DNA from: an uncultured Gammaproteobacteria bacterium | Lineage (GTDB): Bacteria; Pseudomonadota; Gammaproteobacteria; UBA4575 | Direction of reading: 5' to 3' | Length of the DNA stretch: 64,000 nt | Assembly (NCBI GenBank): GCA_951812785.1 | Contig: OX638335.1 | Location: 385,630 to 449,629, forward strand | Part shown: one piece after another, positions 7,705 to 52,369 of the stretch | Numbering within the stretch: position 1 is the stretch's first letter | How the letters are laid out: each line of letters opens with the position of its first letter | Notes under the pieces: generated by a model | The model's database searches: none | What the model saw: the letters and a program-made list of their open reading frames with translations, nothing else | What the model was told of the DNA's origin: nothing | Made by a program: the position numbers and the translations under genes

Positions 7705-10659
7705 TTAAGTGGCTTTATTTTTCAGATTGAACTGCAACAAGTTGGGGATAAGTACTAATGTAAAGAAAGTGCTGACTATCATCCCTCCTACAATGACAGC
7801 CGCCAAACCTCGGTAAAGTTCAGCGCCAGCGAATATTACTAATGGCAACATTCCAAACACGGTAGTCGAAGTACTCATTAAGATAGGTCTTATGCGTGTG
7901 CGCACAGCATTTTTAATTGCATCAGTACGAACAAGCCCTTCGCGTTCTGAGGTGCGTGCTTGGTAGACAAGTAAGATGGCATTGTTGACTACTAGCCCGA
8001 GTAAAATAATAAAACCAATTAGTGTTAGCAGGTCTGCAGGTAAGCCGAGTATCTTAAGTGAAATTACACCACCTATTGTTGCCAGTGGTAATGCCAGCAT
8101 GACTAAAAGACTTTCAAAGAATGATCTAAATAATGCAGCCATTAATAGTAATAAAATAATCAGTGCGATAATGAAGCTGCCACTTTTAAATTGTCAGCCG
8201 AATCACCATAGCGAATCACGCCATCATTAGGCAGTAAGGGCTCCATGACGGGAGCTACTTCAGACTGAATGGTTCTTAGCGCCTGTTCTAACGGCATATC
8301 ATCGGGTGGGGTGACTTCTAAAGCGATAGTGCGTCTTCGGTCTAGTCGGCGAATAGTATTCGGGCCTGCCGTTCTAGTTACATCCACTAATTCACCAAAA
8401 GGAACTACACCTGTGTCAGGAGTGTGTAGCGGTATGGCGGTAAGTTGTTCTGGAGTCTCCCAAATGGGCACGCGGACTAATATATCCAAGCGTTCGTCGC
8501 CATCAAAATATTCTCCGACTTGCATACCATCGCCTAAAATCCTGGATATTTGTGCAAGCGTTTCACGATTCCAACCAGCTTCTCGTAAGCGATCATCACG
8601 TGGAGCAAACTGTAACTTTGGCTCGGCTAGTTCGAGGCCAGGGCGTGGCCGAACTCTGGCGCCAGGGAGTTTTTGTGGAATAGTAATGAAGCCGGCTAAG
8701 GCTGATTCAATTAATGCATCAATGTTTTGGCCTTGAACGTTTACCCCTATTTCTCGATTTGCGCCAAAACCAGAAAATAAAGAAGCCTTTGTGACTATCG
8801 CAAAAGTGTCCGGGAAGCCACTGACAACTTGATTCAGTATGCCCACAAGTTCATCTACTTTTTTGGGGTCTTCAGCGCGCCCACCAATGAAAATTGAACC
8901 AGCACTAGCAACAAAAAAGGAATGCTTTATTTTAGGTTGTTTTTCGCCGCTCAAGTAAGGTGCGATGCGATCAGCAATCACATCACCCATTTCATTTTTA
9001 ATATGGGTAATGTTCACTCCAGGAAAAGGTGGCAGTACGAAGCCGAACACTAGATTGAGGTTGCCCGTTGGCAGGTAATCACGATCAGGGAACAGCAATA
9101 CTGAACTGGCGATTGGAACTGTGACTAGTAAGGCAACAATAATAGTGCGAGACAGTGTTGATTGAGTAACATTGAAAATTTTATTGCTAATTAAATCCCA
9201 TGTATGGCTGTGCTTATCTACAAACGTTGTTTTGTTAAGCCATACCATGCTGGCGACAGGAATAAGAACGGTAGCAACAAAAAGCGAGGCAATAATGGCG
9301 ATTGATAAATTTGCAAACAGTTGCCCGCTTTGATCTTTTAAAAATAATACTGGCAAGAAAATGGCAACGGTGGTGGCAGTAGATGCAAGTAATGCTGGCC
9401 ATACTTGTGCTGTGCCTTTTAAAGCGGCATTGAAATTTGATTCGCCTTTTTCTTTTAGTCGTACAATATTTTCAAGCACAATAATGGCCGCATCCATTAC
9501 CATACCTACTGCAAATACCAATGCAGCTAAAGAAATAACATTGATTGATTTTTCTGAGGCAAGAATTACTACAAATGCGACGCATAAACATAAAGGGATG
9601 GTAATAGTTACAACCATGGTTGCACGTAACCGGCGCAGGAACCACCACAAAATTAATACCGCTAAGAAAACACCTAAACCAAGATTGCTGCGTAGTAACT
9701 GAATTGCGCTATGAATATAAACTGTTTCATCATAGACTTGTTCTATATTTAAGTTAGAACGTTTTAACGGGCCATCTTTAAGTTCTGACATGGCGATTTG
9801 CAAATCAGACATTACATCTAAGACGTTAACCCCAGCTTCACGATAGGCGTTGACAGCAATGGCTGGTTCGCCACGAGTAATCACAAAATTATCGCGGTCG
9901 GCTGATTGCACGCTAACTGTGGCAATGTCGCGCAGGTAAACAGGTTGTCCGTCACGCCATTCTATTACTAGAGTCTGTAAGTCTTTAGGATCAAGTGCGC
10001 CGGTGTAACGTAAAATGTACCTGCGTTTGCCAACTATTTTTGCTGCATTAACAACATCAATACCCATACCGGCTGCTTTGTATGGGTCGACTGTAATGCG
10101 CACTTCACGTTCGTTACCGCCACGTACTTCAAGATAAGGCCACGCCAGAAACACGCTCGAAGCGTGACTGAACAACTTCTTCTATATAGTCACGATACTC
10201 TTCAATGTTAATTTCATTACCTTCGTTAGGCTTGATGATAAACCAAGCAATAGGGCGGCTACGTCCTCCTGCTGTGCTAAGGATAGGTTCATCTGCCTCA
10301 GTGGGGTATTGCGGAACACGGTTGAGGCGATTAATGACTTCGATTAGTGCGCGGTCAAGACTAAAGTCGCCATCAAATGAAAGAGTAATTTTTCCTGAGG
10401 CTTGCTTGGCTTCCGACAAAAGCTCAGTCATTCCAGGTAAACCACGTAACTGATCTTCTTGTGGTTCGATAATTTCTGCTTCTACTTCTTCAGGCGCTGC
10501 ACCGCGCCAAGCAGTAGTAATGGTGATTTCTGGTCGTTCAACTTCGGGTGTGAGTTAAATGGGTAATGCACGTAAAGCTAAGAATCCAAATAATACGATG
10601 AGTAATGCAGTGACTAAGCCTGCGGTTGGGTTGCCTAGTGCAAGTTTAGTTGGACTCAT
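7705..10659 (-). pseudogene. RND efflux transporter (AcrB/MexB superfamily), broken by one stop and two frameshifts
   Basis: Starts at ATG 10659, overlapping the end of the hlyD-like gene by 14 bases. The first 34 codons give a transmembrane start ending ALPI, then TAA at 10555-10557 where homologues usually have Gln before LTPEVERPEI. The frame then continues to a one-base shift near 10140 (between RFERVSGVA and YLEVRGGNEREV). It runs 2 kb in the new frame and returns to the original frame near 8175 (at GSFIIALIILLLL). Normal RND landmarks survive: NEREV, the TM4 stretch FAVGMVMDAAIIVLENI and GLVVNNAILLVY. Without the lesions it would be a proton-driven inner-membrane exporter. The good conservation suggests recent loss. 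Confidence 0.9.
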
Positions 10660-18199: not shown

Positions 18200-19545
18200 A
18201 TGTTAAAAGCAATTAAAACACGCTGGTCTGACGATGGCGGTTATCGTGAAGTGCTGGTCATTGCTGTGCCTCTTATTCTAAGCACAGGTGCTTGGAGCTT
18301 ATTATTGTTTGTCGATCGTATGTTCTTGTCTTGGTATTCATCAGATGCTATTGCCGCTGCAATGCCTGCGGGTATGGCAAGCTTTGCCATGATGTGTTTG
18401 TTTATTGGTACGGCAGCCTATGTGAATACATTCGTCGCTCAATATTATGGTGCAAGGGAAGAAAAGAATATTGGTGCAGTGATTTGGCAGGGCATCTATT
18501 TTAGTGGCCTGTCTATATTGTTGGTTATCCCTGCGTATATATGGGCGCAAGAGTTTTTTGCATTAATAGATCATGAGCAATCAGTTCAACTATTAGAGAT
18601 AGATTACTTTAGATTGTTACTGTATTCCGCAGTCTTCGTTGTATTGAATAATACACTGTCGAGTTTTTTTCTGGTCTAGGCAAGACCATGGCCGTCATGT
18701 GGGTGAGTGTATTAATTACAATGATTAATATCTTATTAGACTACTTATTTATATTTGGAAAATTTGGTTTTTCAGAGATGGGTATTCGAGGCGCAGCGAC
18801 TGCGACAAATATTTCTGTGATCATGGGTTCTATAGTATTACTGGGTTTGATTTTCCAAGATAAATACAGGCAACGCTTTCAGTTATTATCTGCGTGGAAG
18901 TTTGATAAACAGATATTCAATCGCTTGGTTTACTTTTGTTTTCCCAATGGCTTGAGATTGTTTATTGATATGTCAGCCTTCACGGCATTTCTTATGTTCA
19001 TCGGTACGTTGGGGACACGTGAACTTGCGGCAAGTAACATTGCATTCAATATTAATGCGCTGTCATTTTTGCCAATGGTTGGCTTAATGATTGGTGTCGC
19101 TGTGGTGGTTGGTCAGAGGTTGGGTGAAAAGAAACCTCAACTAGCTGAGAAAGCAGTGTGGTCGGCAATACATATTGCCTTAACATTTTTTGGTGTATTG
19201 GCGCTGTTGTATTTGTCTATGCCTAAAATATTTATTTACCCATTCACTTTAAATGGCGGGTTAAGTGATATGGAGGGCAGTGTAGAAATGATTGTGGTAT
19301 TGCTTAAGTTCATCGCATTTTTTGGCATGTTTGATGCGCTGTTTCTAGTTTTCCTTGGCGCTTTAGAAGGAGCGGGTGACACAAGATTTATTATGAAAAT
19401 GAGTTTTATAATATCGGGATTATTGTTGATTGTTCCTTGTTATTTATACATTGAATATTTTCAAGCAAATATATATGTGCTCTGGTTGATCATTACCTTA
19501 AATGTAATTGTTTACTGCTTTGTATTTTTCATGAGATCCCTATAA
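18200..19545 (+). pseudogene. MATE family efflux transporter, split by a T-tract frameshift
   Basis: Two frames together give a full-length MATE protein of about 448 residues. The first covers residues 1-159 and ends LSSFFLV. The second resumes as SGLGKTMAVMWVSVL after a one-base shift in the T7 tract near 18664-18670; eight Ts would restore the frame. MATE landmarks are present: IPLILSTGAWSLLLFVDRMF-type start, GAREEKNIGA, and LGEKKPQLAEKAV in the second half. A sequencing error in the T run is possible; otherwise the pump is inactive. Confidence 0.85.
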
Positions 19546-19930
19546 AGGACCATGGAAAAAATGAGTGTGATTCATTAATCTAGACCGTTGTTTTATTGCC
19601 CTTAGATAATGCAGGCAAAGTATAGGCTTAGTGCAATATTTGTTAGGCAAATAATTTTAAGCGTGTAAGTTATTGAAAGATAATTCTGATTGCTCTAGCA
19701 TAGAATCTGCGGAGCTTTTTTACGTCAATTAAAATAATTATTTAGAATATATTGAATTATATAGCTGCTAACGGCGAAGCAGCATCGCTCCACTAATGAT
19801 TCATTTAATATATTGTTATGATATAATTAATTCAATTTACTGATTACCCTATTTGCTTCAATATTCATTTCGTAGTCGGCTGTTGTGTCGTTAGTAACCA
19901 GCCCGAAAGAATTTTCAATAGGAGATAGTT
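19546..19930. other. Intergenic region upstream of catalase
   Basis: No gene is seen. A small hairpin GCTGCT/AGCAGC lies at 19764-19783. TATAAT at 19822-19827 is a possible -10 element for the catalase gene, but no clear -35 or OxyR half-sites could be confirmed by eye. AGGAG at 19919-19923 serves the catalase start. Confidence 0.3.
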
Positions 19931-27682: not shown

Positions 27683-28361
27683 CTATTCCTTGGTTAAGGT
27701 AGGAGGTTCGACGGGATCTAAGGCTGATTCAAAATTAGTGTCAGGCGCGGGTTCTTTTTTGCCAGAAAAGAAATTGATAAAGAAGCGGAAGACTTTTTTA
27801 ATCGCGCGAAATAATTTGGGTAGTAGCCAAATGATTAGCAAAATAAAGATCACTAACAAGATTAGGAATAACACCGGGTGTTGCAATGCTGCCCATAGGC
27901 CTGCAAACACCGCAATATCTTCTGTAATGGGGGCGGTCCAGTTAGAAAATGGTTCGGGAGAGGTATTAATAAGCACACGTGTACCGGCTTTAGTAAAGTG
28001 ACTTCCAGCAGCAATGGTGCCGCCGCCGAGTGCCGCGGCAATTTCAGCGCCAGCACCCACTTCGCCAATGGCGCATGCGGCTAATAAAGCCCCGGCAGGG
28101 ATGCGCACTAGTGTGTGTAGCGTGTCCCAACCGGTGTCGACGCCTGGAACCTTATCGGCAAAGAATCCAACCACATACATGAATCCTGCGGCGGCAATAA
28201 CAAGTGGATCACCGACGACTTGTAAGTCAGGGGGGGTCGACATAACCCATATTCATCATGACGCCAAGCGCAACGAGGGTGCCATATAAGTTAATACCAC
28301 TGGCCCAGGCGACGCCCATGGTCAATGCGATAGTTTGAATTAAGCCCTCATATGCTTCCAT
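27683..28361 (-). pseudogene. DUF4126 membrane protein, frameshifted in a C7 tract
   Basis: ATG 28361 has a GGAG site upstream and opens with MEAYEGLIQTIALTMGVAW, then GINLYGTLVALGVM. At the seven-G run 28230-28236 (C7 on the coding strand) the frame breaks: one extra base gives VDPP-stop. With six Cs it reads VDPPDLQVVGDPLVIAAAG and continues for 180 more residues to the normal DUF4126 end. Glycine-rich helices follow (AAALGGGTIAAGSHFTKAG). Function is unknown. A homopolymer error or real slippage could explain the break. A shorter product starting at ATG 28243 would lack the first helix. Confidence 0.8.
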
Positions 28362-28513: not shown

Positions 28514-29877
28514 ATGCTAACATTGATAAAATTAATTAGCCTCATGAAACAAAATTCACCTGGAAAACTGAACCAGCCACTGATGCGTAAGCCAGGCAGT
28601 GAGCGTGGTGAAGGTGACTTTGAACCAGTCAGTTGGGAAACGGGGCTTGATTACTTAACTAAAAGATTGGACAAAGTACGCAAGACTGACCCTAAGAAGT
28701 TAGCGTTTTTTACAGGCCGTGACCAGATGCAAGCCCTTACAGGCTTTTGGGCACAACAATTTGGAACAATTAACTGGGCCGCACATGGTGGTTTCTGTTC
28801 GGTCAATATGGCGGCGGCAGGTTTATATACGACGGGCCAATCATTTTGGGAGTTTGGCGACCCAGACTGGGAACACACCAAGTATTTTATGTTGTGGGGG
28901 GTGGCAGAAGATCACTCATCAAACCCAATTAAAATTGGTTTAGAAAAATTAAAACGTCGTAGTGCAAAGTTTGTTTCTATTAATCCTGTACGCACAGGCT
29001 ACCAAGCGATTGCAGATGAATGGGTTCCAGTAAAACCTGGGACTGATGGCATGCTTGCATTGTCGATGGTGCACGTCTTATTGAAAAATGATTTGTTCGA
29101 CTGGGAATATGTAGTCCGTTATACAAACGCGACTCAGTTGATTGTCCATACACCTCTACTAACGAGGACGGTTCAGCAAAATATAAAGGCTATAAAGATT
29201 TTATTGTTAACTACGAAAAATCACCTGGCATTGGTTTCTTAGCAGGCTGGCGTGGCTTAGAACAACGCTGTACGTCTATAGAAGAGTATCCATTCCATGC
29301 GATCACACAGTGTCCAATGATGATGTATCACTCATGGGACTCACAGAATGCATGGTTGCGCCAGATACTGGCACAAAACTATATGTACATGAATCGTCAA
29401 CAAGCTGAAGCCATGGGGATAAAAGATTTGTCTTGGATTTGGTTGGAATCTAAAACAGGCAGAATTCGTGTGCAGGTTAAGTTGATGGAAGGTGTTGAGA
29501 AAAGCACTGTCTGGACCTGGAACGCGTTTGGTAAACAAAGAGGCACATGGGGGCTTGATGCGGATGCCAATGAGTCTAACCAAGGCTTCTTGTTGAATCA
29601 TTTGATTAATGAGCATCTACCATGTGGCGATACAGGAAGACCAATTACTAACTCAGACCCAATCACCGGTCAGGCAGCTTGGTATGACTTACAAGTCAAA
29701 ATATATCCTGCTAAGGCAGGCGAAGTAGGAATATGGCCTAACTTTGAAACGATTAAGCCGTTACCAGGGTCGGTAAGAGCAAAAGATAAGTTGCGTTATC
29801 AAACGCATAAAGCAGTGGGTGTCAGTCGTTCGCTAAAAGATATTTTAATGCGCGGCGATACAAGGAGAGACAAATAA
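28514..29877 (-). other. Strand note: see the plus-strand soeA remnant in this interval
   Basis: No supported minus-strand gene lies here; the coding content is the plus-strand soeA remnant listed separately. Confidence 0.3.
28514..29877 (+). pseudogene. soeA: Molybdopterin sulfite oxidase catalytic subunit SoeA, heavily deleted
   Basis: Homologues are about 950 residues with an N-terminal 4Fe-4S motif. Here the N-terminal cysteine region is absent. A first block (residues like MKQNSPGKLNQPLMRKPG, GGFCSVNMAAAGLYTTG, YFMLWGVAEDHSSNP) runs to VRYTNATQLIVHTP near 29155. The frame then shifts and sequence from much later in the protein follows (SPGIGFLAGWRGLEQRC, HSWDSQNAWLRQILAQN, the molybdopterin dinucleotide C-terminal domain). 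At least 400 residues are missing in the middle (estimate from family length). The identification as SoeA rather than formate dehydrogenase rests on the SoeB/SoeC-like partners. Confidence 0.8.
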
Positions 29878-30485
29878 TGAAACTAGGACTGGTTATCGAT
29901 TTAGACACATGTGTGGGTTGTAATGCTTGTGCGGTTGCGTGTAAGCAATGGAACACATCAGGCACAACAGGTCTGCTCACAGATTTTGAACCCTACGGAA
30001 AAGATTCAACCGGCGTTTGGTTTAATCGTATTCGTAATTATGAAGTTGGCGACTACCCAAATAGCAAGACTGTCCATTTCCCAATGTCATGTATGCATTG
30101 TGATGACGCAGCTTGCGTGACGGTGTGTCCTACAGGTGCATCATACAAACGTGAATTAGATCGTGAAGATGGCGTCATGAAAAAGTGTACTTTGTGTGTG
30201 GATCGAATTTACGATGAGAATCTGCCCGAAGATGAACGCAAACCCGCTTGTGTGATGACGTGTCCATCTCATGCACGCTACTTTGGTGATTTTGATGACC
30301 CAAATTCAGAAGTGTCTATCATTTCTAGGGAAAGAAATGGTGAACAGCTAATGCCAGAACTGGGTTATCAGCCCGTGAATAAGTATTTGAGTCCTCGTGA
30401 AAAGAAAAATGTAGGAACTTATGTCAATGAAACTAACTCCATCAAAGCAGTAAAAGATTGGGTTAATCGTTTAGTGACAAGATAA
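29877..30485 (+). pseudogene. soeB: Iron-sulfur subunit SoeB lacking the third 4Fe-4S motif
   Basis: 202 residues in an open frame, translationally coupled to soeA (TAATG). It keeps motif I (CVGCNACAVACK near 15-26), motif II (CMHCDDAACVTVCPTGA near 67-83) and motif IV (CTLCVDRI and PACVMTCPSHA). Homologues of the DmsB/NarH/SoeB family carry a third motif CxGCxxCxxACPYG between GASYKR and the EDGVMKKC stretch. Here GASYKR joins directly to ELDREDGVMKKC, so about 25-30 residues are deleted in frame. The protein would lose one cluster of the electron wire. It may still be translated but is unlikely to work. Confidence 0.8.
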
Positions 30486-30503: not shown

Positions 30504-31290
30504 ATGCATCCAGCACTATCAGTAATATTTTTTACAGTCACATCCGGAGCAGGCTATGGCTTATTTGCTATCACTTGTTTATATAATTCTATTAGTCAGA
30601 CGCAACCATTAGGGGCTGAAGGAATCTTGTTGTCGTGTACGGTTGCTTTGGGATTAATTTCATCAACATTCCATTTGGCAAATCCAAAGAATGCATGGCG
30701 TACGTTTAGTCGTATACGAACATCTTGGTTGGCGCGTGAGGGATTGTTAGCAATTTTGTTTTACCCAATTGCAGCTTTGTATATGTGTACCATCTGGAAA
30801 GGAATTGGCGGGTATAATTGGCTCGCAGTTATTTCAATGCTTTCAGCGCTATGGGCAATGACGACTATCTTTGTCTACGGGTATGATTTATGCCTGTCTT
30901 AAAACCATTAGACAGTGGCATAACGCCTTAACACCGGTTAATTATATTTTGTTAGGTGCTATGTTAGGCGGGTTAATATTTCTATTGATAGCCTCTATGT
31001 ATGAGCCAGTGATTACAGGGTTGGTGGTGACGAGCACTTACTTGATTATTATTGCCGCGATAGCGAAGATTGTTTATTTCTTTTGGATAGGAACACCCGC
31101 TGGCCCAACGATTAACACGGCAACTTCTTTCACTAGAAGTATGGTCAGATTGCTTGATGTTGGGCATACCGCAGGAACATTCTTAACAGATGAATTTGGT
31201 TATCAGGTTGCACGTGCACGTTTAATTGCATTGCGTTGGTTGGTTTTTTTGTTCGCATTTGCAGTGCCTGCATTAGTGCTTTGGGTGTAA
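30504..31290 (+). pseudogene. soeC: Membrane anchor SoeC (DmsC/NrfD-like), frameshifted
   Basis: The first frame begins MHPALSVIFFTVTSGAGYG, typical of SoeC, and runs to ALWAMTTIF. A one-base insertion near 30880 then sends it to a stop at 30902. The second frame resumes STGMIYACLKTIRQWHN and continues through membrane helices to VPALVLWV at 31290. SoeC would anchor the cytoplasmic SoeAB pair and pass electrons to quinone. RBS GGAAG precedes the start. Third damaged gene of the operon. Confidence 0.82.
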
Positions 31291-31717
31291 TGATAGAGCG
31301 CTGGCTGCTTCTTTGCTGAAGCACGTCACGTAGTTAATTTATACCACGGTACACAGCAGTGTTAGTAACTATGAATAATATCAATATGTGAAACTCTCAC
31401 CAATGCGAGGATTTTTTAGTTGAATAAGATTGTTAACTAATTTTCCGCAATGTAATTGCTGGTTTCTTCTATATCTTTATCCCAACTAATGATGAGAACC
31501 AAAAACTATTAAATAAATCCTATATATTTATTCAATAGAAACAAACTGTGTATATGTAAGTATCTGACGGTAGAAAAATTTAATGAGAAGTTTAATGTCA
31601 AACGCTTATAAATTGCAGACAGATGTGGCAGATGTAGGTGCTGAATAAAGTTGTGCTAAAAGCGTATAAATAGACAGGCAAATGGCTTATTAGCGAAACT
31701 AATGAAGAGGCAATACT
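31291..31717. other. Gene-poor gap after soeC
   Basis: AT-rich. No recognisable gene, RNA or clear terminator is seen; only very short open frames. Confidence 0.3.
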
Positions 31718-44301: not shown

Positions 44302-44315
44302 TTGATATAGGTCAA
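44302..44315. promoter_or_regulatory. FNR-type box upstream of fnr
   Basis: TTGATATAGGTCAA matches the FNR consensus TTGATnnnnATCAA with one mismatch. It lies about 50 bases before the fnr reading frame, which fits autoregulation. Confidence 0.6.
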
Positions 44316-44361
44316 GCCTAGTTTGGAATATTCAATGCGAAAATATAAATGGAGAGTTTGA

Positions 44362-45086
44362 TTGACGGAATCTAATGTCAGTTTTCGAGCACTAACAGCA
44401 TCTTGTAAAACCTGTAGGTTGGCTGAGCTATGCCTACCTTAGAGGCTTGCATGCTGAAGACTTACAAAGTCTGGATGATCTCATCAAAACTAGATGTGTC
44501 GTTCATAGAGGAGATCTACTTTTCAAGGAAGGCGAAAGTAATCAATCTATCTATGCTGTTCGTTCTGGCTCAATTAAAACATTTGCAATGACTGAGCGTG
44601 GTGATGAACAAGTGTTAGGTTTCCATCTTCCGGGTGAAATAGTTGGCTTGGCGGGCTTGGATGAATCTATTCATAATTGTAGTAGCAAGGCATTAGAAAA
44701 TAGCAGTGTATGCGAGATGCCGCTCAATGAATTAGAAAATATTTGTATGCAAATTCCTAGTTTACAGAAGCAGCTGTTGAAATTAATTAGTCGCGAAATT
44801 TCTCAAGATCATAAAATGCTTTTGCTGTTAGCCAAGAAAAATTCTGATCAACGTGTAGCGACGTTCTTAATTAAGCCTCTCTGGGCGATTCAAATTACGC
44901 GGTTTGTCTAGTGAGTCATTTATTTTGTCAATGAGCCGCCAGGATATTGCTAATTACTTAGGTTTGGCGGTGGAAACAGTGAGTCGTATCCTTACCCGAT
45001 TTGGTGAAGATAACATTGTTGATGTGACGCGACGTTCGATTCAGATTATGAATCGTGATCGCTTAATAGAAATTGCCGAGGTATAA
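44362..45086 (+). pseudogene. fnr: FNR/ANR oxygen-sensing regulator with two frameshifts
   Basis: Three frame pieces join into a full FNR of about 240 residues. Piece 1 (TTG 44362, GGAG at 44351-44354) holds the cluster motif SCKTCRLAELCLP, C-x2-C-x5-C, as in FNR. An extra base near 44440 shifts to RGLHAEDLQSLDD and the cyclic-nucleotide-like fold (GSIKTFAMTERGDEQVLGFHLPGEIVG). An extra base near 44875 shifts again to [13 protein letters not shown] and the helix-turn-helix ([20 protein letters not shown]). Removing both bases restores the family sequence well, so the break is recent or an error. FNR switches genes in response to oxygen loss. Confidence 0.88.
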
Positions 45087-45396: not shown

Positions 45397-46578
45397 TTAT
45401 GCTTTTTCACATAAAGGCATGTCAGTCCATCCAGCCCGATAGTTCATTCGAGCAGCGATTTTTTGTTCGCCTTCACTAGCATGTCTCTTATCCCATTCAG
45501 CAAGTTTTGGCTTAATGAATGCTTCCCAGACTGGTGGCACCAAGATCATTGCGAACATAGCGAAGTAACCGTAGCCAGTATCAGGCGAACCAACTTCTTC
45601 TAGTTCCCAGAAGTGTGTCTCACCTCGGTCATGGTGATCGCCTTGGCGACCAATCTCGATGAAGCCCCATTGGGTGATAGGTGACTCGCCAACATCCCAT
45701 GAATGGTGATACTCAATTGGCTTACCTTTTTCACGAATTAACCCGTAATGCTCTAGATAGTTAAGTACTTCTAATTCAAAACCGGCTATTGCCCATGCTG
45801 CTAGCATAATGCCTAGGCTGATCCAGCCACCCGCCATCCAGAATAGAATGATGGTAGGTAAACTCATAGCATAGCCACGAATCCAACGGTTCTGCCAAGA
45901 GATGAATGAAACACCTAATCTTTTCAATCGTTGTTGTTCCATTATGTACAAAAAGCGTGACTGCCCAAAATGGGATAATAAGTAATGCTTGTAGATTGAT
46001 CTTCCACGAGGTGAAGTCGCAGGGTCGTCTTCGCAACCCAACTCTAAATGATGGTTATAGACGTGTGCATAACAGAAGTGTGCAATTCCACTTAATGCCA
46101 TCATCCAGCGAGCTAGTACAAAAGTAGGTCCTTTTGTATGAGCAAGCTCATGACCAAACATAATGCCAAGTCCAAGAAACATTGCCGCTGAAAATGTTGC
46201 GCCTGTCATTTGCCAACCCGTCAATCCAGTTTGTACTTCAAGGCCCAGGAAACCCATGGTGCCTATAGGAACACCTGTTGCGAATTCGTAAACGCGCCAA
46301 ATTAAAGCAAGTTGTAATGCTATAAACACAGGGTACTGTGCCCACATCATTGCTTTGAGTAACCAGGGTTTGCCTATGGTTTCGCCATCTTCATCGCGAC
46401 CTGCTGGTTCAGCGTGAATGCTAGGAATTACACTGGTGAGGAAGTCTGCAACAATTGCTGCTCCGAATACGGCAACGCCTAACCATACCCAGTTGCCGCC
46501 GAGAACGACGCCTAATAAAGATAACAATATTAAGCCTGGGGTGAAAAAATATCTAATGTTAACTAAAAACGTATGCAT
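45397..46578 (-). CDS. alkB: AlkB/XylM-type membrane diiron monooxygenase (alkane 1-monooxygenase family)
   Basis: 393 residues with six or so membrane helices. The histidine boxes are present: HELAH at 143-147, HVYNHH at 172-177, NYLEHYGL at 273-280, and GDHH at 313-316. The family oxidises terminal methyl groups with rubredoxin electrons. The second box reads HVYNHHLELGCEDDPATS rather than the common EHxxGHH form, and the last box reads GRQGDHHDRGETHFWEL rather than LQRHSxHHxxxxxxYQxL, so the substrate range may be unusual. No rubredoxin gene is in the window. An ompW remnant lies upstream and a small membrane gene downstream. Confidence 0.88.
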   Translation of the reverse strand: MHTFLVNIRYFFTPGLILLSLLGVVLGGNWVWLGVAVFGAAIVADFLTSVIPSIHAEPAGRDEDGETIGKPWLLKAMMWAQYPVFIALQLALIWRVYEFATGVPIGTMGFLGLEVQTGLTGWQMTGATFSAAMFLGLGIMFGHELAHTKGPTFVLARWMMALSGIAHFCYAHVYNHHLELGCEDDPATSPRGRSIYKHYLLSHFGQSRFLYIMEQQRLKRLGVSFISWQNRWIRGYAMSLPTIILFWMAGGWISLGIMLAAWAIAGFELEVLNYLEHYGLIREKGKPIEYHHSWDVGESPITQWGFIEIGRQGDHHDRGETHFWELEEVGSPDTGYGYFAMFAMILVPPVWEAFIKPKLAEWDKRHASEGEQKIAARMNYRAGWTDMPLCEKA

Positions 46579-46644: not shown

Positions 46645-46658
46645 ATGATGTAAATCAA
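46645..46658. promoter_or_regulatory. FNR-type box, alkB-proximal
   Basis: ATGATGTAAATCAA fits TTGATnnnnATCAA with one mismatch, centred about 73 bases upstream of the alkB start codon. Confidence 0.55.
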
Positions 46659-46706: not shown

Positions 46707-46720
46707 TTGATGAATATCAA
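46707..46720. promoter_or_regulatory. FNR-type box, alkB-distal, perfect consensus
   Basis: TTGATGAATATCAA matches TTGATnnnnATCAA exactly and is extended by flanking C/G into a longer palindrome. It lies about 135 bases upstream of alkB, just after the ompW remnant's stop. Confidence 0.6.
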
Positions 46721-46723
46721 GTT

Positions 46724-47086
46724 TTAAAATCTTTTGCCAAAGCCAAGTCCAACTACAATGAGGTCAATGTTGACATCTACTTCGACATTTCCAGACGCGG
46801 CCGGGGTGTTATGGAACTTTGCGGTGGAGTCGATTTTTATATATTTAATATCTGCGTTGATGAACTAGTTGTCTTTAAGCATATAGTCGGCACCTATTTG
46901 TGCGGCTAACCCCTAAGAGCTTTTTTAGGTGTATATCAGAGCCGGCAATATCTAATGGTCCCCTGACTTTTTCATCATAAAATTAAGTGTAGTTGACACC
47001 TATGCCTGCATATGGGCGGATTGTGCCACCAGGATTGAAGTGATATTGCAAAGTTAAGAGTTGGAGGAAGCACGTCGATGTTAATT
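46724..47086 (-). pseudogene. ompW: OmpW-family outer-membrane porin remnant, cut by an IS481 copy
   Basis: Reading leftward from the IS edge: LLTLQYHFNPGGTIRPYAGI, then stops and frame changes, then LAAQIGADYMLKDN-stop, and the OmpW ending INADIKYIKID, VDVNIDLIVVGLGFGKRF. Two nonsense codons are seen (TAA after GVNYT, TAG after LKDN), and the N-terminal half is missing beyond the IS. OmpW forms a channel for small hydrophobic compounds, which fits a neighbour of alkB. Confidence 0.75.
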
Positions 47087-48263
47087 TGTAATAGTTCAGA
47101 CCCGATCTGACAATTAGCAATCCACAAGGGTTGCAAAAGCGAGAGTTACCCGTTTTGATAAAGGTGTTGAAATCTTTAAATCAAACCAAAAAGGCAGGTA
47201 ACTCTCATGCTTCATACTAACAATCCAATCCTTAAACACAAGGCGGGCTTGCTCAACTTAGCAGAAGAACTGGGCAACGTATCTAGCGCCTGTCAAGTCA
47301 TGGGGGTGTCGCGAGACACATTCTATCGTTATCAACAGCGGGTTGAAGAAGGTGGCATTGACAAGAGTCGTAGAACAGCCGATGTTAAAAACCGTGTGGA
47401 TGAAGCCACAGCACATGCAGTGGTTACGTCAGCGATTGAACAGCCCGCGGTTGGGCAACATCGAAGCAGCAATGAACTCCGTAAGAGAGGTGTGTTGATC
47501 GCTGGTAGCGGTGTGCGTTGCGTTTGGCTGCGCCATCATCGAGAGCACTTCAAGAAACGACTCAAAGCACTCGAAGAAGAAATTGCCAAGGATGGCATTA
47601 TCTTAAGCGATGCACAGATCGCCGCCCTTGAGAAACAGGATGACGAGGCCTGTGGTGAGATTGACACGGCACATCCTGGTGACTTAGGCAGCCAGGATAC
47701 GTTTTACCTAGGCCACCTCAAAGGTGTTGGTCGGCTATACCAGCAAACGTTCGTAGACACCTACAGCAAGATCGCCTTTGCGGCACTCTACACGACTAAG
47801 ACGCCGATTACCGCCGCAGACCTACTCTTTGATGAGGTGCTACCGTTTTTTGAAAAGCATGCCTTGCCGATGCTACGTAGTTTAACCGACAGAGGCACAG
47901 AATATTGTGGGCGCGTGGAGCATCATGACGATCCGTGATACCTGTCCATTAACGACATTGATCACCGCAAACCCATGGCATCTGTGAACGCTTTGATAAA
48001 ACCATTCTGAATGAGTTTTATCAAATTACCTTCAGGAAAAAACGGTACTCAACCAGGGAAGATTGACAACAAGATCAAGACAACTGGATAGAAACTGATC
48101 ACAATGAACGCACTCATCAAGGCAACATGGGCGGTGGTAGCACACCCATGGACAGGTTAATGGATGGTAAATTGATTTGGGCTGAAAAGAATTTAGCTCA
48201 CATCTAAACTGACAGACTCCTATCAATAACCGGTAACGGTACGATCAGGTCTGAGCTACTACA
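47087..48263 (+). mobile_element. IS481-family insertion sequence, left copy
   Basis: The 1177-bp element is bounded by TGTAATAGTTCAGACC at 47087 and, in reverse complement, TGTAGTAGCTCAGACC ending at 48263: related terminal inverted repeats starting TGT. The transposase lies inside on the plus strand and is defective. Its mirror copy is at 51208-52369. No target-site duplication could be matched around either copy. Confidence 0.82.
47207..47938 (+). pseudogene. IS481-family transposase, C-terminally broken
   Basis: 243 codons: an N-terminal helix-turn-helix (GNVSSACQVMGVSRDTFYRY) and the DDE core start (DTYSKIAFAALYTTKTP, LRSLTDRGTEYCG). After HDDP-stop, homologous sequence continues out of frame (INDIDHRKPM, then GICERFDKTILNEFYQITF, ERTHQGNMGG, WAEKNLAHI). 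A short deletion between HRKP and GICERF removes the usual PQTN segment. It cannot make a full DDE enzyme. Confidence 0.8.
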
Positions 48264-48310
48264 CCTAATGCTATTTTCTGTTGGCCTTCATTCATGTTCT
48301 GATACAACAT
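48264..48310 (-). pseudogene. Start of a further gene cassette, interrupted by the left IS
   Basis: Just beyond the first attC (leftward), AAAGG precedes ATG 48310 and 15-16 codons (MLYQNMNEGQQKIALG) run into the IS edge at 48263. This is where the next cassette's gene should start. The gene is cut, and its remainder is not seen on the other side of the IS, where ompW lies. Confidence 0.4.
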
Positions 48311-51207: not shown

Positions 51208-52369
51208 TGTAGTAGCTCAGACCTGATCGTACCGTTACCGGTTATTGATAGGAGTCTGTCAGTTTAGATGTGAGCTAAATTCTTTTCAGCCCAAATCAAT
51301 TTACCATCCATTAACCTGTCCATGGGTGTGCTACCACCGCCCATGTTGCCTTGATGAGTGCGTTCATTGTGATCAGTTTCTATCCAGTTGTCTCGATCTT
51401 TTGGTCAATCCTCCCTGGTTGAGTACCGTTTTTTCCTGAAGGTAATTTGATAAAACTCATTCAGAGATGCCATGGGTTTGCGGTGATCAATGTCGTTAAT
51501 GGCCAGGTATCACCGATCGTCATGATGCTCCACGTGCCCACAATATTCTGTGCCTCTGTCGGTTAAACTACGTAGCATCGGCAAGGCATGCTTTTCAAAA
51601 AACGGTAGCACCTCATCAAAGAGTAGGTCTGCGGCGGTAATCGGCGTCTTAGTCGTGTAGAGTGCCGCAAAGGCGATCTTGCTGTAGGTGTCTACGAACG
51701 TTTGCTGGTATAGCCGACCAACACCTTTGAGGTGGCCTAGGTAAAACGTATCCTGGCTGCCTAAGTCACCAGGATGTGCCGTGTCAATCTCACCACAGGC
51801 CTCGTCATCCTGTTTCTGTTTCTCAAGGGCGGCGATCTGTGCATCGCTTAAGATAATGCCCTCCTTGGCAATTTCTTCTTCGAGTGCTTTGAGTCGTTTC
51901 TTGAAGTGCTCTCGATGATGGCGCAGCCAAACGCAACGCACACCGCTACCAGCGATCAACACACCAGTTCATTGCTGCTTCGATGTTGCCCAACCGCGGG
52001 CTGTTCAATCGCTGACGTAACCCCTGCATGTGCTGTGGGTTCATCCACACGGTTTTTACTATTGGCTGTTCTACGACTCTTGTCAATCCGTGAGTCAATG
52101 CCACCTTCTTCAACCCGCTGTTGATAACGATAGAATGTGTCTCGCGACACCCCCATGACTTGACAGGCGCTAGATACGTTGCCCAGTTCTTCTGCTAAGT
52201 TGAGCAAGCCCGCCTTGTGTTTAAGGATTGGATTGTTAGTATCAAGCATGAGAGTTACCTGCCTTTTTGGTTTGATTTAAAGATTTCAACACCTTTATCA
52301 AAACGGGTAACTCTCGCTTTTGCAACCCTTGTGGATTGCTAATTGTCAGATCGGGTCTGAACTATTACA
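51208..52369 (-). mobile_element. IS481-family insertion sequence, right copy (inverted)
   Basis: 1162 bp, the mirror of the left copy, from TGTAGTAGCTCAGACC at 51208 to the reverse complement of TGTAATAGTTCAGACC ending at 52369. It is inserted into an IS3-family remnant. It differs from the left copy by several indels, so the pair is not a fresh duplication. Confidence 0.82.
51510..52249 (-). pseudogene. IS481-family transposase, right copy, broken
   Basis: A 97-codon N-terminal frame ends NELVC after a 10-base deletion relative to the left copy (which reads NELRKRG). A 150-codon second frame then carries the rest to HDDR-stop. Insertions encoding SRID and QK relative to the left copy are seen. 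The C-terminal region carries the same HRKP-type deletion as the left copy and a larger one after it. Confidence 0.8.

Follow-up and report, generated by a model that had tools for sequence, protein, structure and literature searches.

A gene for the oxygen regulator FNR is spread over three reading frames in a 64,000-nucleotide stretch of an uncultured gammaproteobacterial genome (hereafter, the window), which raises the question of whether the organism has truly lost this regulator, whether the breaks are errors of assembly, or whether a functional protein is made despite them. As a rule, a global oxygen regulator is recognised as lost only once its gene has disappeared. Here, the dead gene, its intact relatives, the surviving target boxes, and the partly erased low-oxygen enzymes can all be seen, which allows the likely order of loss to be read. 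The fnr locus (44362-45086, + strand) is very probably a genuine and recently formed pseudogene in a broadly decaying genome with lost partner functions. The event itself is of a known kind, ordinary genome erosion, and is well documented by relatives and controls; nothing close to it was found in the literature as a prior report of an fnr pseudogene.

The fnr locus and its counterparts in related genomes

The limits of the pseudogene follow from its sequence and from alignment with relatives. The frame opened by the TTG start at 44362 runs LTESNVSFRALTASCKTCRLAELCLP up to a TAG at 44440-44442, while the FNR coding region as a whole ends at the TAA at 45084-45086. Aligned against the intact FNR genes of three genomes of the same genus (G002, G003, and G004), the locus shows one extra base in the TT of CTACCTTAGAGG and another in the AA of TTCTTAATTAAGC. 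The first is a +1 frameshift at TT 44439-44440 (feature 44439-44442, +) that creates the TAG at codon 27, directly past the third cluster cysteine; the second is a +1 frameshift at AA 44869-44870 (+). The original prediction that two single-base insertions break the gene was borne out, as the relatives' FNR aligns across both sites unshifted; it had placed the first exactly, at 44440, and the second about 5 bases off, at 44875.

The longest open frame left (44447-44911, +) covers the sensory/dimer region and lacks both the three N-terminal cysteines and the helix-turn-helix, the latter being carried by a C-terminal remnant at 44904-45086 (+; PF00325 match at G000:C1:430554-430640). No stops occur inside the long pieces. 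All four cluster cysteines (three N-terminal and one in SVCEMP), whose retention had been anticipated, are still encoded, albeit in two different frames, and so is the DNA-recognition helix VETVSRI; cysteines and helix are unchanged. Because of the TAG at codon 27 and the second +1 shift, no single open frame runs from the sensor to the DNA-binding domain, and the assembled sequence, read with standard decoding, shows one whole FNR protein to be impossible. The truncated protein, 26 residues ending directly after the third cluster cysteine, would not couple an Fe-S sensor to a DNA-binding domain. The longest open piece scores 155.9 bits against the NCBIfam model NF008365 (Fnr), below its cut-off of 228, as opposed to 263 bits for an intact relative.

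In each of the three relatives, an intact 240-residue FNR occupies the matching place, with about 84% identity over the middle part, and aligns over residues 13-240 with PDB 5cvr (E 2e-63). The relatives' gene has the four cysteines and the helix-turn-helix of FNR from Aliivibrio fischeri and Escherichia coli (PDB 5cvr; NF008365); the window copy differs from these in being broken in two places, which would rule out a whole protein. The putative autoregulatory-type FNR box upstream of fnr (44302-44315, +; TTGATATAGGTCAA, one mismatch to TTGATNNNNATCAA) is present as predicted and is conserved in the orthologues, reading TTGATATGGATCAA at the equivalent position in G003 and G004 and TTGACATGGATCAA in G002.

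DNA and protein searches of the source genome, together with a CRP-family helix-turn-helix model, found no second fnr/anr; the model matched only the broken fnr and a single CRP-like regulator that lacks the cysteine motif. The proposed recent loss of the organism's oxygen switch accordingly stands for FNR, of which the genome has no other copy, and extends no further, since loss is shown for FNR only. G002 (L161:1181-1960) and G004 (L162) possess a divergent second FNR-like gene, 37-39% identical, that is absent from the source genome. In another genome of the genus, G001, an FNR homologue is reduced to its C-terminal DNA-binding half, 94 residues long, lying between other genes at L159:3472-3756 (contig 16); this half-gene possibly represents an independent FNR loss.

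True decay versus assembly error, altered decoding, or a variable allele

The counts below for the source genome come from a 1.26-Mb sample of stretches, set against a 0.8-Mb sample of G002. An initial comparison (464 kb of the source genome and 400 kb of G002) first cast suspicion on the assembly: 6 of 71 shared genes were multi-frame in the source genome, and the reverse test gave none. The larger comparison raised this to 26 of 309 genes shared with G002, while 0 of 249 own ORFs were multi-frame in G002's sample when tested in reverse at an intermediate sampling (864 kb of the source genome). A core-gene control and the spectrum of stops and deletions then turned against error. The core set comprised the E. 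coli K-12 core genes in the sampled part (rpoB, rpoC, rpoA, dnaE, ileS, alaS, leuS, ribosomal proteins, and others), and in these 61 genes and 67 kb no true frameshift was present, where 6-9 were expected (Poisson p of about 2e-4 to 2e-3; Fisher p 0.008). The sole core "match", for fusA, was a second match of 30% identity just downstream of an intact fusA and was taken to be a paralogous translation-factor gene. By a count that takes in frameshifts, internal stops, and the loss of more than 30% of a gene, the source genome has 54 damaged shared genes vs 7 in the reverse comparison with G002; fnr is one of dozens of pseudogenes. Random errors would strike housekeeping genes equally, so the absence of core frameshifts, along with the stops and deletions, points to true decay from which selection has spared essential genes. 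Such a genome-wide core-gene control is a usable way to separate decay from assembly error without reads.

Several other damaged genes were recorded. An RND efflux permease (1005 residues in G002; window 7717-10659) is broken by a frameshift, by an in-frame stop, and by the deletion of some 19 bases; a large CheA-type hybrid chemotaxis kinase (1553 residues in G002; L049:13144-17076) has several frameshifts, and genes for surface behaviour may therefore be decaying; and an MsbA/Atm1-like ABC transporter (L060:14734-16520) has a frameshift and stops. Two further genes go off frame within homopolymers, where error is more plausible than elsewhere: a 459-residue membrane transporter, MATE-like by eye (window 18200-19575), within a T run, and a 224-residue membrane protein (window 27686-28361) within a C run.

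Since dS between species is saturated, the dN/dS ratio suggested as a check of the gene was uninformative, and fnr was instead set against intact neighbours in a relative test. This three-way comparison, from which one non-orthologous row was taken out, showed an amino-acid excess in fnr: 26 private changes on the source lineage vs 15 on G002 and G003 together, as opposed to 94 vs 193 in the intact neighbours (Fisher p = 0.0002), indicative of relaxed constraint on fnr along the source lineage. The fnr dN, at about 0.10, is low, which means that the gene was constrained for most of the branch and counts against the preferred reading. The unchanged cysteines and helix, the presence of only two lesions, and the stop-free long pieces mark the inactivation as recent when set against the species split. 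As neither +1 insertion compensates for the other, one of them presumably arose in an already dead gene.

That indel errors in sequencing or assembly hide an fnr still intact in the living organism is unlikely. Long-read consensus typically suffers from single-base indels in short repeats, the source genome is one contig, and some of its other indels sit in longer homopolymers (the T run near 18661 and the C run near 28234) where error is plausible; an assembly error at fnr itself is still conceivable, although errors do not explain the genome-wide pattern. The frameshift-free core genes speak against such errors, as do the in-frame stop codons and large deletions in many broken genes, which are not products of indel errors, the accelerated amino-acid change in fnr, and the neighbouring molybdenum-dependent oxidoreductase operon and ompW, which are broken by deletions and IS rearrangement. 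The earlier reading of fnr as broken is supported in that the spared housekeeping genes and the relaxed constraint on fnr disfavour error. It is more improbable still that the assembly caught a low-frequency or phase-variable allele while most cells keep FNR. The break is known from one genome only, and single-base changes should in principle be reversible; however, phase variation by slippage needs longer repeats than these two-base ones, the gene has two lesions, and amino-acid constraint on fnr is relaxed. Hardly credible at all is programmed or four-base (+1) decoding, by which the ribosome would pass both sites, for example at CCT, and make a functional FNR. Both sites are +1 and have a CCT nearby (CCT TAG; AAG CCT CTC), but in the alignment with relatives the second inserted base falls within TTA|A|TTA, which precedes the CCT, on which ground four-base decoding at CCT was dropped. 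Moreover, the relatives have no shift at either site, the genome's other frameshifts include minus shifts and unrelated contexts, and its core genes are without frameshifts.

Low-oxygen enzymes and FNR-type boxes at alkB

The case for fnr being a true pseudogene includes the state of functions that low-oxygen metabolism would engage. A molybdenum-dependent oxidoreductase operon lies 14 kb upstream of fnr and consists of (i) a molybdopterin oxidoreductase remnant (28541-29874, +), of which pieces 63-267, 623-655, and 763-968 of the 968 residues in G002 are left, (ii) an open Fe-S subunit gene (29877-30485, +), about 28 residues shorter than in G002, and (iii) a dmsC-type anchor subunit gene (30504-31362, +) frameshifted near 30877. 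G001-G005 all have the molybdopterin oxidoreductase intact, at about 80% identity or more. G002 carries the cbb3 high-affinity oxidase genes ccoNOP, and G011 has a ccoN of this type some 4 kb away from its fnr. PF00115 matches of that class are also found in G003, G004, G006, and G008; in G014, a shorter match likewise sits some 4 kb away from fnr. The cco DNA of G002 as query found no match in the source genome, whose one cytochrome oxidase subunit I is of the aa3 type, judged by its length and subunit II neighbour. Among 19 genomes of the family, all 7 with a ccoN-type match of 463-501 residues have FNR, and the 10 without a full FNR (including the source genome and two fragments) lack such a match, with G017 ambiguous; these counts are uncorrected for relatedness or incomplete genomes.

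These observations suggest a course in which selection for low-oxygen metabolism was relaxed, fnr turned dispensable and was then inactivated, partner functions of the FNR regulon (the ruined oxidoreductase operon and the absent cbb3 oxidase) were also lost, and the alkB target boxes have so far escaped erosion. The oxidase and the molybdenum enzyme likely went first and the regulator later, with the boxes last. A bolder and tentative proposal, somewhat less probable than its negation, is that FNR and the cbb3 oxidase have repeatedly been lost together in the family and that the source genome has been caught just after inactivation of the regulator, with its alkB boxes intact. If true, it would offer a natural experiment in which to follow the behaviour and erosion of a regulon whose oxygen sensor has died.

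The alkB gene, an intact alkane 1-monooxygenase homologue (45397-46578, - strand; 8sbb, E=5.8e-27), is a putative retained target of FNR-type control. Target sites had been claimed upstream of it, and two FNR-type boxes were indeed located there: one with one mismatch at 46645-46658 (-) and a perfect one at 46707-46720 (-). Both are conserved in the genus, being kept in G002, where the second is likewise perfect, and in G003 with one mismatch each. Perfect FNR boxes number 9 per 1.26 Mb in the source genome vs 1-8 in permuted controls, and 11 per 0.8 Mb in G002 vs 0-3, figures that are suggestive only. An Anr box has been reported upstream of alkB in Pseudomonas extremaustralis (PMC6588701), where an alkane hydroxylase gene is likewise preceded by an FNR/Anr-type box; unlike that organism, the source genome keeps two conserved boxes despite a broken regulator. 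Its alkB would now run without FNR control.

The split ompW and expansion of an IS481-family element

In G002 and G003, ompW adjoins alkB and carries an FNR-type box of its own. The window holds only the 3′ half of ompW (46727-47118, -), with stops and frameshifts, whereas the 5′ half, together with the box, is found at a distance of 1.56 Mb (L146:4448-4798) beside another IS copy. The 3′ half borders a decayed copy of a repeated IS481-family element (47077-48277, +), whose end points vary slightly by the copy compared. Since both halves adjoin copies of this element, and since the order of genes found in G003 changes over at that point, the split is attributed to rearrangement between IS copies. 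The loss of fnr is coherent with this IS-split ompW, the ruined oxidoreductase operon, and the absent cbb3 oxidase.

Sixteen full-length copies of the element, at 93-99% identity, occur in the 1.26-Mb source sample, and none in the 0.8-Mb sample of G002; repeats make up 8.5% of the former vs 0.3% in G002. In the window, the element occurs at 51208-52369 as well as beside ompW. Pseudogene accumulation with IS expansion is known from host-restricted or recently niche-restricted bacteria, and the source genome resembles these in its IS proliferation, many young pseudogenes, spared housekeeping genes, and rearrangement between IS copies. One relative from its genus, G004 (JANQKJ/PL25a_bin.154), is a metagenome-assembled genome from Porites lutea coral skeleton, according to its sample prefix (PMC9868349, PMC11070183).
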